Origin: an uncultured Prochlorococcus sp.
GTDB taxonomy: Bacteria > Cyanobacteriota > Cyanobacteriia > PCC-6307 > Cyanobiaceae
NCBI GenBank assembly: GCA_902625845.1
Contig: CACOCT010000006.1
Span: 1 to 44,740, forward strand
Direction: 5' to 3'
DNA length: 44,740 nucleotides
This document shows, in pieces, positions 37,455-42,970 of this stretch. Position 1 is the stretch's first letter; each line of letters starts with the position of its first letter. The translations under genes were made by a program, and so were the position numbers. The notes under the pieces were generated by a model that made no database searches, had not been told where the DNA came from, and saw only the letters and a program-made list of their open reading frames with translations.

Positions 37455-40400
37455 ATGACTCTCAGCGATAAAATCAGAATTTATGAGCTTTCCAGAGATT
37501 TAAATCTGGACAATAAAGACATATTGGATGCCGCTCAAAAACTTTCAATAACAGTGAAAAATCACAGTAGCTCAATAAGTTTTAACGATGCACAAAAGAT
37601 AAAAAATCATTTAAAAAATAATGTTAATAAAAGTAAAAATATCATATCTGTTAATAAATCATCCTTAAGTTCTAAACCTCAACAAAATCAAGCTAAAAAT
37701 TCTGAGGATAGTTCGAAAAATCTTAAAACAAATGCAAATTTAAAAAATAAAAATTCTAAAGTAGTAAAACCGTCAAAACCTTTATTAACAAAGCCAAGTA
37801 TTTCAAAATTTACTAGTAAAGATAATTTATCAAAAAAAGAAGAAAAAAATCCACCTCTAATTATATCAACATCTAAATCCATAAATGAGCATAAAAATTC
37901 TAGCTTTTCTAATATCAAGAAATATGAAAGTAAAGTTAAGTTAAAAAGTAAATTAAATGACAAAAATGATCAACTTCCTAAATCGCCCAAGCCAACAATT
38001 CAATTAATTGAAAAGCCTAAAAATGTTAACAAGAATCAAATTCAGTCCACACAAACCAATAAAAATAAACTAAATAATCCAAAATATTCTAATTCTAATC
38101 GTGTTGAAAGTAATTCAATCAAAAATTTTCCTAAGAAAGCAGTCACATCAAGCCCGGAATTAGTTGGAGCGCCTATTAGAAGAGAGAACATTCAAAATAA
38201 ACAGAATATCAATTACAAACAAAGCTCAAATAATAAATCTGGAGGTCCAATTAAAAGTAATAATATCAATAAGCCCATAAACAGTAATAGAAATAATCAC
38301 TTAAATAGATCTTCAATACAAAATAGATATGGTACTCCCAACAGACCAAATAGCCCAACCAAAATGGGAAATCAGGGTAGGTCTATCTCACCAAATCGAC
38401 CAGGTACACCCAATAAAGCAGGCATTTCTAATAGACAGGGTATAGCTAATAGACCAAACTCACCAAATAAAAGAGGAGAATTTAACAAATCCAATTCAAA
38501 ATTCAATCGACAAATGGGCTCTGGAGTTAGAAAACCGGTTTCTCCAAATGAGCTAATGCAGCTTCAAAAAACTCGTTCTTCAAATAACGAAAAAACAAAT
38601 CAAACTGACTATAAGAGACCTAAGCCGATCATTGCTCAAAAGCAAAAACCAAAGGCACCTGCAGCAAGACCCAATTCAATTGTACCTGCCAAAAAAGCAC
38701 CGCATAGATCAAGTAGTGCCTCAAAAAAACCAGGAAGAACAGATTGGGATGATTCAGCAAAACTTGAAGCCTTAAGAAATAAAAGCCCTCAAAAACAGAG
38801 ACAAAAAGTCCACATTATTGGAGAGAATGACGATTCTCTTACTACAGAAACTAGTGGATTCGCTGGAGAACAAAAAACATCAATCTTATCTGCAAGTTTA
38901 GCCAGGCCTAAAAAAGCAAAGTCTGAGAATGAAAAATCACAAAAGCCAAATAACAAAGCTAAAAAGAAGAAAAAAGAAAGTACAAGGCAAAGACAAAAAA
39001 GAAGAGCTATGGAATTACGTGCTTCGAGAGAAGCGCAACAAGTAAGACCTGAAATGATCATAGTTCCTGAAGATAATTTAACCGTACAAGAATTAGCCGA
39101 TAAACTAAGACTTGAAAGTTCAGAAATAATTAAATCTCTATTCTTTAAAGGTATTACTGCTACTGTTACTCAATCATTAGATCTAACTACAATCGAAACT
39201 GTTGCTGAAGAATTCGGAGTTCCTGTTTTACAAGATGATGTTGAAGAAGCTGCAACAAAAACAGGAGATATGATTGAAAAAACTGATATAGATAGCTTAA
39301 TAACAAGGCCACCTGTTGTCACGGTAATGGGTCATGTAGATCATGGTAAAACAAGTCTTCTTGATTCAATCAGAAAGTCAAGAATAGCTTCGGGAGAAGC
39401 GGGAGGAATTACACAACATATTGGTGCGTATCAAGTTGAAGTCAACCATGAATCTAAGACCAAAAAACTTACTTTCTTAGATACACCAGGGCATGCTGCA
39501 TTTACTGCTATGCGCGCAAGAGGAACGAAAGTAACTGATATTGCAGTATTGGTTGTCGCAGCTGATGACGGGGTAAGACCTCAAACTCTTGAAGCGATAA
39601 GCCATGCAAGAGCTGCCAAAGTTCCAATAGTTGTAGCTATTAATAAAATTGACAAGGAAGGGTCATCACCAGATAGAGTAAAACAAGAGTTATCTGAAAA
39701 AGATTTATTAGCTGAAGATTGGGGAGGAGATACTGTAATGGTGCCAGTCAGTGCAATTAAAGGTCAGAATATCGATAAACTACTAGAAATGATTTTATTA
39801 GTGTCTGAAGTTGAGGATCTACAAGCAAATCCTCGAAGATTAGCAAAAGGCACTGTTATAGAAGCACATCTAGATAAGGCGAAAGGTCCTGTAGCAACTT
39901 TGTTAATACAAAATGGAACTTTAAAATCAGGTGATGTTCTTGCCGCTGGTTCTGTTCTTGGAAGAATTAGGGCTATGGTTGATGAACATGGAAATAGAAT
40001 TAAAGAAGCAGCTCCATCATTCCCTGTTGAAGCCCTAGGGTTTAGTGAAGTGCCTACTGCTGGAGATGAATTTGAAGTATATACAGATGAGAAATCAGCA
40101 AGAATGATTGTAGGAGAAAGAGCAACAGATGCAAGAGTAACAAAATTAGCTCAACAAATGGCCTCTAGAAGAGTAAGTTTATCTTCACTATCAAATCAAG
40201 CAAATGAGGGGGAACTTAAAGAATTAAATCTAATTCTAAAAGCAGATGTACAAGGGAGTGTCGAAGCTATTTTAGGTTCATTAGAACAACTACCTAAAAA
40301 TGAAGTTCAGGTTAGAGTACTCTTTTCTGCTCCTGGAGAAATTACAGAAACAGATATAGACTTAGCTGCTGCCTCAGGTTCTGTTATTATTGGTTTTAAT

Positions 40401-40835
40401 ACCTCTCTCGCTTCAGGTGCTAAAAGAGCCGCTGATACAAATGATGTTGATATTAGAGAATATGAAGTAATTTATAAATTATTAGAAGATATTCAATCCG
40501 CAATGGAAGGTCTATTAGAGCCTGATTTAGTTGAAGAGGCCCTAGGAGAAGCTCAAGTTAGAGCTACTTTTGCTGTTGGCAAAGGATCAATCGCAGGTTG
40601 TTATGTAAATACTGGAAAATTACAAAGGAATTGCTCATTGCGTGTACGCAGAGCTGGTCAAATTATTTACGAGGGGAATTTAGATTCTCTAAAAAGGTCT
40701 AAAGATGATGTAAAAGATGTAAACACAGGTTTTGAATGCGGTATCGGTTGTGATAAGTTTTCTAATTGGAACGAAGGAGATATTATTGAGGCTTATAAAT
40801 TAGTAACAAAGAAAAGAACATTAAGTAAAAACTAA
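37455..40835 (+). CDS. infB: Translation initiation factor IF-2
   Basis: IF-2 is the GTPase that brings initiator tRNA to the 30S subunit and promotes subunit joining. The protein (1126 residues) has an IF2_N-like first domain ([19 protein letters not shown]). About 500 residues of low-complexity, Asn/Lys/Ser/Pro-rich sequence follow, with repeated NRPxSPxK-type units at about 290-345. After a Lys/Arg-rich stretch comes a second IF2_N-like domain ([13 protein letters not shown]). The GTPase has its P-loop GHVDHGKT at 626-633, then DTPGHAAF and NKID. Domains II to IV reach the end. It is the last gene of its operon and overlaps the convergent DUF3493 gene by four bases. Confidence 0.97.
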
Positions 40836-41068
40836 TTTTTATCCCTTTCAAAATAAAATAAAGTTGGAAATAAAATTGATGCACCTATTTGGATTAATAA
40901 ATTATTTTGTTGTATTTCGTTTCCACCAATTATTTGAGAAAGCATTATAAACAAACCTAGAAAAGCAGAGCCAGTACAAGCTGCCCAAATTAATCTTCGC
41001 AAACCTTTAAATGGAGCTTTTGTTTCTCGAAGTAATTTCTTCTTCAATTTAGGATCAATTTCTGACAT
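40832..41068 (-). CDS. DUF3493 family membrane protein
   Basis: The 78-residue protein has a basic N-terminus with [14 protein letters not shown], typical of the DUF3493 family (relatives of plant LPA3). Two hydrophobic helices follow (about residues 28-46 and 58-72) before a short charged end. Relatives are linked to photosystem II assembly in plants; for the short cyanobacterial form this is only inferred. The ATG at 41068 is preferred over the TTG at 41080. It overlaps the end of infB by four bases. Confidence 0.82.
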
Positions 41069-41121
41069 CAATGATTTCAAACATAAACTTTAGTTTATAT
41101 TAAAAAAACTATTTGAACATT

Positions 41122-41193
41122 GTCGACATGGCTCAGTGGTAAAGAAACTGTCTCGTAAACTGATGTTCATTGTTTCGAATCCGATTATCAGCA
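41122..41193 (+). pseudogene. Decayed tRNA-Thr(CGU)-like sequence
   Basis: The sequence lines up base for base with a tRNA cloverleaf. The D loop is AGTGGTA, the anticodon loop CTCGTAA gives anticodon CGU (threonine) at 41154-41156, and the T loop is TTCGAAT. Every stem is damaged. I count two mismatches in the acceptor (C24-A90, C27-A87; last two digits of position), two in the D stem, two in the anticodon stem (A47-A63, T49-T61) and one in the T stem (T73-C81). The loops are intact but about 7 of 21 pairs fail. A functional tRNA is unlikely; a degenerate copy or remnant is more likely. It marks the left edge of a gene-poor region. Confidence 0.65.
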
Positions 41194-41334
41194 TTAACTA
41201 TTTAAATAATATCTTGAAGAGAAATGTTGTATTTGAGATATGAAATCTATCTGCAGAAAATTCTTACCGATTAATTATAGAAATTGATCTAACAGTTGAT
41301 ATTGGAATATTATAAATTATGTTTTTAAGGCTCA

Positions 41335-41360
41335 AGTAATTAATATTTTAATTAATTACT
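41335..41360. repeat. Perfect 10-base inverted repeat
   Basis: AGTAATTAAT and its exact reverse complement ATTAATTACT flank a six-base AT loop. The stem has only two G-C pairs and no T-run follows, so it is not a good terminator. It lies 30 bases before a candidate small gene and could be a protein-binding palindrome or chance in an AT-rich spacer. Confidence 0.5.
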
Positions 41361-41390
41361 CATATACGATATTTCCTATGAGAAAAGATA

Positions 41391-41519
41391 ATGTCATGTG
41401 GCTTAATTGTAATTGTAATATTATGTTTTGCTAATTTATTATCAATAATTACTAATAACCCTGTTTCAGATTCTCTAAATAGAATAATTGACTTGTCGAG
41501 AAATTTTTTAATTTTATAA
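41391..41519 (+). CDS. Candidate 42-residue membrane peptide
   Basis: The frame runs from ATG to TAA. It encodes a hydrophobic N-terminal helix (about residues 3-20, LIVIVILCFANLLSIIT) and a polar helix-like tail (SDSLNRIIDLSRNF). The layout resembles other tiny membrane proteins of picocyanobacteria, but I do not recognise the family. There is only a weak purine-rich stretch upstream and no second line of support, so it may be a chance frame. Confidence 0.35.
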   Translation: MSCGLIVIVILCFANLLSIITNNPVSDSLNRIIDLSRNFLIL

Positions 41520-41900
41520 AAGAGAATGAATTCTAGGATTTATGAATACATCCTTTCCTGGAATTTACAATATTAAAAGAAGACGTCACAAATGACATTA
41601 GATACCTAAAATTATGTCAGTTATTATACCCAAAAATCAGAGGCACCTCATAAATCAAGTTAAATTGATAGTTCAAGTTATCGGAAGTATCTTTGGATTA
41701 TTTGATATCAAATGTTTAACGAATAATTTTTGAGTTACATAATTAAATAAATCTATAAATTTTTCTTTTATTAATTCAAAAAAAGTAATAAAATATTAAT
41801 TGATCTAAATTAATCTGTTATGTTCACTTAAATTATTCATATAAATTAAATCATTTCAAATAAGAAAAAAGTTTAGTAGAGTTTTAGTAATATTAGATTT

Positions 41901-42040: not shown

Positions 42041-42970
42041 ATGAATCAAAATTACATTATTCTAATTATTTCAATTATTAGCTTTTTTATCATTTTATGG
42101 ATTGCTAAGAATAGAAAATTTGAAACTACTGACTCAGTTTCTGATGCTTATGATACGTGGACAAATGATAGAATCTTGGAAAAATTATGGGGTGAACATA
42201 TTCACTTAGGTTACTATCATAACCCAAAAAAATTAGGGGATTTTAGAGAAGCCAAAGCTACATTTGTGCATGAATTAGTAAAATGGAGTGGGTTGGATAA
42301 ATTACCAAAGGGATCAAGAGTTTTAGACGTTGGATGTGGGATCGGAGGCAGTTCAAGAATCCTAGCCGAACATTATGGTTTCAATGTAATTGGAATAACA
42401 ATAAGTTCCGAACAAGTAAAAAGAGCAAGAGAACTAACAAAATCAACTTTAAATTGTACTTTTCAGCAAATGGATGCTATGAATTTGAAGTTTGAGGATG
42501 GAGAATTTGATGGAATTTGGAGTGTTGAGGCAGGCCCTCACATGCCAGATAAACAAAAATATGCAGATGAGATGCTACGAGTGTTAAGACCAGGAGGCTA
42601 TTTAGCTGTAGCAGATTGGAACTCTAGAGATCTAACTCTAAAAGCACCAAATATGATTGAGAAAATGGTTTTAAAGCAATTACTTGAACAATGGGCTCAT
42701 CCAAGCTTTAGCAGTATCAATAGCTTTAAGAAAAATCTTTCAAATAGTTCTTTTGTAGGAAGTCAAGTTGAAACAGATGATTGGACAAAAGAAACATTAC
42801 CATCTTGGTGGGAATCTATTTTTGAAGGAGCTAGAAGACCAAAAATATTTTTAACACTAGGTTTATCTTCACTAATAAAATCATTTAGAGAAATACCAAC
42901 TATTCTTTTGATGAATTGGGCTTTTGGAAATGGACTTATGCAATTTGGTGTATTTAGATGCAGAGGTTAA
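42041..42970 (+). CDS. MPBQ/MSBQ methyltransferase (Sll0418-like)
   Basis: The protein is SAM-dependent and methylates 2-methyl-6-phytyl- and -solanesyl-benzoquinol in tocopherol and plastoquinone synthesis, acting at the membrane. It has 309 residues with a hydrophobic N-terminal anchor (about 4-22). The SAM motif is VLDVGCGIGG (94-103). It also carries the family-specific segments AYDTWTNDRILEKLWGEHIH, IWSVEAGPHMPDK and QLLEQWAHPSFSSI, which I recognise as close to Synechocystis Sll0418. Gamma-tocopherol methyltransferase is a relative, but the anchor and these segments favour MPBQ/MSBQ methylation. A reductase or hydroxylase-like gene follows 130 bases downstream. Confidence 0.88.
   Translation: MNQNYIILIISIISFFIILWIAKNRKFETTDSVSDAYDTWTNDRILEKLWGEHIHLGYYHNPKKLGDFREAKATFVHELVKWSGLDKLPKGSRVLDVGCGIGGSSRILAEHYGFNVIGITISSEQVKRARELTKSTLNCTFQQMDAMNLKFEDGEFDGIWSVEAGPHMPDKQKYADEMLRVLRPGGYLAVADWNSRDLTLKAPNMIEKMVLKQLLEQWAHPSFSSINSFKKNLSNSSFVGSQVETDDWTKETLPSWWESIFEGARRPKIFLTLGLSSLIKSFREIPTILLMNWAFGNGLMQFGVFRCRG

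Follow-up and report, generated by a model that had tools for sequence, protein, structure and literature searches.

The locus at positions 41122-41193 (forward strand) raises the question of whether a tRNA-Thr(CGU)-like sequence is a working tRNA gene, a gene that decayed where it stood, a fragment left by a mobile element, or a gene broken only in appearance. It also raises the question of how ACG codons are read if the gene is lost. The sequence lies in the window, i.e., the whole stretch of 44,740 nucleotides that was analysed. The window is one entire contig (C6) of a 59-contig assembly of 1.18 Mb (genome G000), which is 66% complete. Judging from the contig number and the completeness, the assembly probably comes from a single cell or a metagenome.

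The nearest named relatives were searched with the DUF3493 protein encoded beside the tRNA-like sequence. Prochlorococcus HNLC1 showed 94% identity, AH-287-E16, AH-321-P05, AH-287-B22, and AH-321-J03 showed 91-92%, and W8 and HNLC2 showed 83 and 81%, respectively, in agreement with the Prochlorococcus origin implied in the first-pass annotation. According to a table in PMC4421930, HNLC1 belongs to clade HLIV, and HNLC2 and W8 belong to HLIII. The terms group and nearest, as well as the number of independent losses given below, are based on DUF3493 identity, differing mutations, and a shared new site.

Identity and fold of the tRNA-Thr(CGU) remnant

The Rfam model RF00005 matched 41122-41193 (+) over all 71 model positions with 30.4 bits, the gathering score being 29. 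The coordinates and the strand were exactly those of the first-pass annotation, which had described a tRNA-Thr(CGU) remnant with mismatches in each of the four stems. On the Rfam model structure, 14 of 21 stem pairs were kept and seven were broken, i.e., two in the acceptor stem, two in the D stem, two in the anticodon stem, and one in the T stem. Of the features of a functional tRNA-Thr(CGU), the CGU anticodon was found within a seven-base loop (CTCGTAA, anticodon CGT). However, a cloverleaf with paired stems was absent, and the gene finder ARAGORN detected no tRNA anywhere in the window.

The remnant was compared with the intact tRNA-Thr(CGT) of HNLC1 (GL947594.1; G079:C1:1365181-1365252). 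The two sequences stand at the same locus between the same neighbours, are full-length, and share the anticodon. They were aligned over 72 of 72 bases with 85% identity, and because of this identity to a tRNA at the same locus, the remnant cannot be a chance resemblance. The differences comprise 11 of the 72 bases. Seven of them fall in stems, where they break seven different pairs with no compensation, whereas the HNLC1 copy retains 21 of 21 pairs. The HNLC1 copy folds as a cloverleaf at -20.2 kcal/mol (z -2.8). The remnant had been called cloverleaf-shaped, but its best fold is no longer a cloverleaf (-10.5 kcal/mol, z +0.85) and is no better than the folds of shuffled sequences.

Intact orthologs were found at the same place. 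ARAGORN predicted tRNA-Thr(CGT) beside the DUF3493 gene in all seven nearest relatives (L077-L083), and 20 or all 21 of the stem pairs are formed in these copies; the corresponding named records (L166-L172) are HNLC1, AH-287-E16, AH-321-P05, AH-287-B22, AH-321-J03, W8, and HNLC2. According to the first-pass annotation, relatives lacking a tRNA at this locus would have spoken against a remnant, and the opposite was observed. By DNA search with 41050-41260, matches were obtained in 24 of 36 same-genus relatives, and ARAGORN predicted tRNA-Thr(CGT) in all 24. The match extended across the upstream flank in 21 of them and began at the tRNA in the other three. Among 22 named loci, tRNA-Thr(CGT) was present in 15 and absent in seven, and these seven belong to a second group of genomes with remnants, which is described below. 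Because an intact tRNA occupies the same place in relatives, the remnant is to be considered a full-length ortholog and not a partial copy.

When the remnant itself was used as a query on 266 genomes, it hit itself and, beyond that, nothing but intact copies in four near relatives (E up to 1e-14). Therefore, no second genome with the same remnant was found among these 266 genomes. The pseudogene was also not found described in the titles or abstract openings of the literature searched. In the same Rfam search, a SNORD107 match was attributed to chance, its score of 22.1 bits being below the cut-off of 50.

Very probably, 41122-41193 represents the tRNA-Thr(CGU) gene that an HLIV-type Prochlorococcus inherited from its ancestors and that became a pseudogene by decay in place. 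Selection on the ancestral gene would have been relaxed, and point mutations would then have accumulated at the original position.

Neighbouring genes and the 2.16 kb deletion

Upstream of the remnant, an ORF of 1126 aa at 37455-40835 (+) was named by eye as infB, encoding IF-2. It is followed by the DUF3493 gene (PF11998, LPA1/Rep27) at 40832-41080 on the minus strand, which was recognized with 66.5 bits in Pfam. This conserved left neighbour is present in 213 of 266 genus genomes, many of which are incomplete. On the right side, an intact methyltransferase gene was found at 42041-42970 (+; PF08241, 83.1 bits).

The genes between the tRNA and the methyltransferase were mostly lost. In HNLC1, the tRNA is followed after about 22 bases by an open PMT_2-type glycosyltransferase gene (PF13231), an open glycosyltransferase family 2 (GT2) gene (PF00535), and the methyltransferase gene. 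The window, in contrast, shows the junction of a deletion of approximately 2.16 kb at 41215-41217, where window position 41215 corresponds to position 4974 of the relative's locus L192 and 41217 corresponds to 7136. Lost in the deletion were the PMT_2-type gene and over half of the GT2 gene, from codon 1 to about codon 199. The decayed 3' part of the GT2 gene was detected by tblastn at 41217-41720 (+) as a pseudogene with many stops (39% identity to residues 242-367, E 2e-12). A search of the window's genome, as far as it is assembled, gave no other copy of the PMT_2-type gene.

The first-pass annotation had pointed to partial tRNA copies at island borders. The remnant could then be a border fragment, i.e., the attachment-site copy of a mobile element that integrated at the tRNA. 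Tycheposons use tRNA genes in Prochlorococcus (cited in PMC10872708), and the 2.16 kb are missing directly beside the remnant. However, the copy is full-length and no 3' fragment, and its context is conserved, since the missing stretch consists of the two glycosyltransferase genes that lie downstream of the tRNA in many Prochlorococcus genomes. The order of DUF3493, tRNA, and two glycosyltransferase genes is conserved in the genus, and the first glycosyltransferase gene follows the tRNA in 12 of 16 other intact-tRNA loci examined. The tRNA end TATCGGCA occurred near the stretch only in the tRNA itself in seven of seven relatives, with one more copy about 5 kb upstream in L170. In another genome (G020), the intact tRNA is directly followed by core-like genes, as named by eye. 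An integrase was absent from the five proteins scanned in Pfam, i.e., the two lost genes as read in HNLC1 and three neighbours. The border of a mobile element is thus a highly improbable origin of this copy.

Two near-identical 3'-half tRNA fragments were seen elsewhere in the same genome (L045, G000:C3:36738-36793; L201, G000:C11:5882-5936). By eye they derive from tRNA-Pro(UGG), and they resemble the island-border copies that the first-pass annotation had in mind.

The loss of the tRNA and the loss of the glycosyltransferase genes are separable, because genomes with an intact tRNA have lost the genes and the second remnant group has conversely kept them. AH-287-B22 (L169) carries its own separate glycosyltransferase deletion, G035 has only the GT2 tail left, and in G020 both genes are missing from the 16 kb that were read; the tRNA is intact in all three. 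Both genes were kept in seven of eight second-group genomes examined, the eighth locus being cut by the contig end.

Sequencing or amplification errors could also make an intact gene appear broken, and an assembly of 59 contigs with 66% completeness would, if it is of single-cell or metagenome type, leave room for them. Nevertheless, the 11 changed bases out of 72 stand next to 41 unchanged bases and are accompanied by the adjoining deletion and a stop-ridden pseudogene. Of the explanations considered for this locus, errors are the least probable.

Substitution pattern and rate

The 11 changes in the remnant were distributed as seven in stems (42 positions), one in hairpin loops (21 positions), and three elsewhere (nine positions). 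The first-pass annotation had held that the loops were spared too cleanly for sequence drift, unless the remnant is young or the loops retain a role. The probability of at most one of 11 changes falling in loops is P = 0.10, so the loop conservation is not significant as a signal of function, and this claim was not borne out. When the lone loop change, which restores the majority letter of the genus, was omitted, the value became P = 0.024. This range leaves a little room for residual constraint. The seven broken pairs compare with 4.8 expected under random substitution (P = 0.13), and the pattern of changes is compatible with neutral drift.

The window-side branch lengths were estimated by three-point comparison. 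The tRNA gave 0.16-0.18, a rate based on 11 changes only, the third codon positions of three genes gave 0.10-0.13, and the GT2 fragment gave 0.27-0.29. The tRNA branch of HNLC1 itself was approximately zero. Changes unique to the window amounted to 0.14 in the tRNA, 0.19 in the GT2 fragment, and 0.04-0.07 in the third positions of two genes. The substitution rate of the tRNA on the window branch is at least that of third codon positions. From these branch rates, it is reasonable to consider that the tRNA was without visible constraint during much of the time since the split. An intact ortholog at the same position, together with change at least as fast as at silent sites and no compensation, is what decay in place would leave. 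The decayed GT2 fragment (41217-41720) has itself changed on the window branch more than twice as much as nearby third codon positions.

In raw differences from HNLC1, the tRNA (11/72) has changed less than the GT2 fragment (133/500; P = 0.04). This is a hint that the glycosyltransferase genes were lost first, and the deletion may have preceded the decay of the tRNA.

The intergenic stretch of 41 bases 5' of the tRNA (41081-41121) is identical to HNLC1 in all positions, which differs from the tRNA with its 11 changes (Fisher P 0.007). It perhaps holds a promoter and the 5' region of the DUF3493 gene. Such conservation, together with intact D, anticodon, and T loops, would be in line with continued production and use of the RNA, whether as an unusual tRNA or as some other small RNA. 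The fold, however, is no better than that of shuffles, none of the seven broken pairs is compensated, and the identity of the upstream bases may be explained by the divergent DUF3493 gene that they also precede. Continued use of the RNA is accordingly considered very unlikely. The same low standing applies to its more specific form, in which the locus is transcribed and the RNA with intact loops and broken stems is kept for another use, e.g., as a small RNA source, with tRNA-Thr(CGU) truly lost and the UGU isoacceptor alone reading ACG. A promoter and terminator scan gave no terminator and 16 promoter-like sites against a shuffle mean of 9.0, and this result was not used as evidence.

Reading of ACG codons and tRNA loss in the genus

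The probable decay in place of tRNA-Thr(CGU) leaves the ACG codons to be accounted for. In 34 mechanical ORFs of the window, 41 of the 571 Thr codons are ACG. Avoidance of ACG was considered as a footprint of the loss and was rejected, since at aligned sites the window has 38 ACG codons against 33 in HNLC1, i.e., they are if anything commoner in the window. Because ACG codons are present and undepleted, they must be read. The assembly encodes 21 canonical tRNA genes including Thr(GGU) and Thr(UGU), whereas no intact Thr(CGU) was found in the assembled part. Since ACG is undepleted and tRNA-Thr(UGU) is present, wobble reading is likely, and it is plausible that ACG is read by this tRNA. Selection on tRNA-Thr(CGU) may have been relaxed for the reason that the few ACG codons are served by tRNA-Thr(UGU) through wobble.

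A comparable redundancy is described for E. coli thrW (tRNA-Thr2), the tRNA for ACG, in PMC6599085. The study worked with a thrW knockout, and its authors state that the UGU isoacceptor with (m)cmo5U34 reads ACG redundantly. The codon is the same, but thrW was deleted in the laboratory, whereas the gene in the window decayed in nature. For Prochlorococcus, this (m)cmo5U modification of E. coli is putative. UPF0176_N (PF17773), a domain of the U34 hydroxylase TrhO, was detected in six of seven genomes searched, and the seventh is the window's own incomplete genome. Methyltransf_9 (PF08003), presumably CmoB, exceeded the cut-off in none of the seven genomes, with two weak matches below it, so that a wobble modification of UGU is only putative here.

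Given that the copy in the window is a pseudogene, the true loss of tRNA-Thr(CGU) with wobble decoding is favoured as the probable state of this genome. Another intact tRNA-Thr(CGU) could be hidden at a new site in the unassembled third, with the old copy abandoned. This explanation shares the pseudogene part with the preferred one and is regarded as a tentative possibility; both gradings are judgements and were not computed. The first-pass annotation had proposed wobble reading for the case that this was the only tRNA for ACG. This is plausible in so far as Thr(UGU) is present and an intact CGU copy is lacking in the assembled part, but a 66%-complete assembly may hide such a copy.

The case for a hidden copy comes from the rest of the genus. 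Among the 87 genomes with a completeness of 90% or more, a match to the intact tRNA at E below 1e-23 is present in 84, a hand count from search tables in which the matches were not each checked by ARAGORN. The remaining three are G145 and G189, which are without the infB end and thus represent an assembly gap, and G149, which represents a contig end. Among the DUF3493-bearing genomes, 207 of 213 match the tRNA at E below 1e-22 (likewise a hand count), and the six without a match are G000, G032, G114, G149, G172, and G223. In G223, DUF3493 is present with no Thr(CGU) match, and ARAGORN gives only other tRNAs. Such near-universal retention suggests that the loss has a cost, and a hidden second copy can be argued from it. 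In addition, the 21 tRNA genes of the window's genome are few compared with the 34-37 tRNA matches in each of four fuller genomes.

The second remnant group shows that such a hidden copy has a precedent. Decayed copies beside DUF3493 were found in ten genomes (G015, G032, G105, G113, G114, G115, G116, G120, G121, and G181; among others AG-679-M10, AG-686-J21, AG-673-L20, and AG-388-E21). These remnants are full-length as in the window, differ from a reference copy by 12-21 substitutions, and have four to seven pairs broken, and ARAGORN predicted a tRNA in none of the ten loci. The G105 remnant lacks most of the mutations common to the others. The group differs from the window in its mutations, in mostly keeping the glycosyltransferase genes, and in that an intact tRNA-Thr(CGU) is present at one shared new site in eight of the ten genomes. 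The two exceptions are G114 (65% complete) and G032 (58% complete).

Against a hidden copy in the window's genome, no second copy was found in its assembled part, and HNLC1 (90% complete) has a single copy. ARAGORN also predicted no Thr(CGU) in the 20 kb beside Thr(GGU), which apparently correspond to the region where the moved copy lies in the second group. Furthermore, G172 (89% complete; L202, G172:C18:8000-16500) has deleted the tRNA, and no other tRNA-Thr(CGU) copy was found in its assembly. In this genome, a deletion of about 2.6 kb extends over the entire tRNA and the first glycosyltransferase gene and into the second, most of which is gone. The locus has thus apparently lost its tRNA twice more elsewhere in the genus.

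The remnant in the window represents a real but modest gene loss, a new example of a known process, and it is neither the border of a mobile element nor a new kind of RNA. The larger meaning is that within a single streamlined genus a conserved tRNA locus was apparently lost three times or more, each time in a different way, i.e., by decay in the window, by relocation and decay of the original copy in the second group, and by clean deletion in G172. Prochlorococcus thereby offers a natural experiment on two questions, whether the C34 isoacceptor can be dispensed with in the presence of a U34 isoacceptor, and how tRNA genes reach new sites. The losses are also a warning that incomplete genomes can display only the abandoned copy.

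Some details of the moved copies were also noted. The upstream flank is common to all eight, and the downstream sequence was seen in several comparisons to diverge about 45 bases past the tRNA. A tRNA-Met lies approximately 1.3-1.5 kb downstream of the moved copy in G015, G181, and G010. The moved copy is also present in G010 and G012, with no infB-end match in their assemblies. Three small ORFs of the region gave no Pfam match. In G015, the old decayed copy lies at C1:1434146 (L089) and the new intact copy at C1:818172 (L114). In G149, contig C8 (L145/L199) stops inside tRNA-Thr(CGU) after about 30 bases, and this break could reflect a repeated tRNA there.
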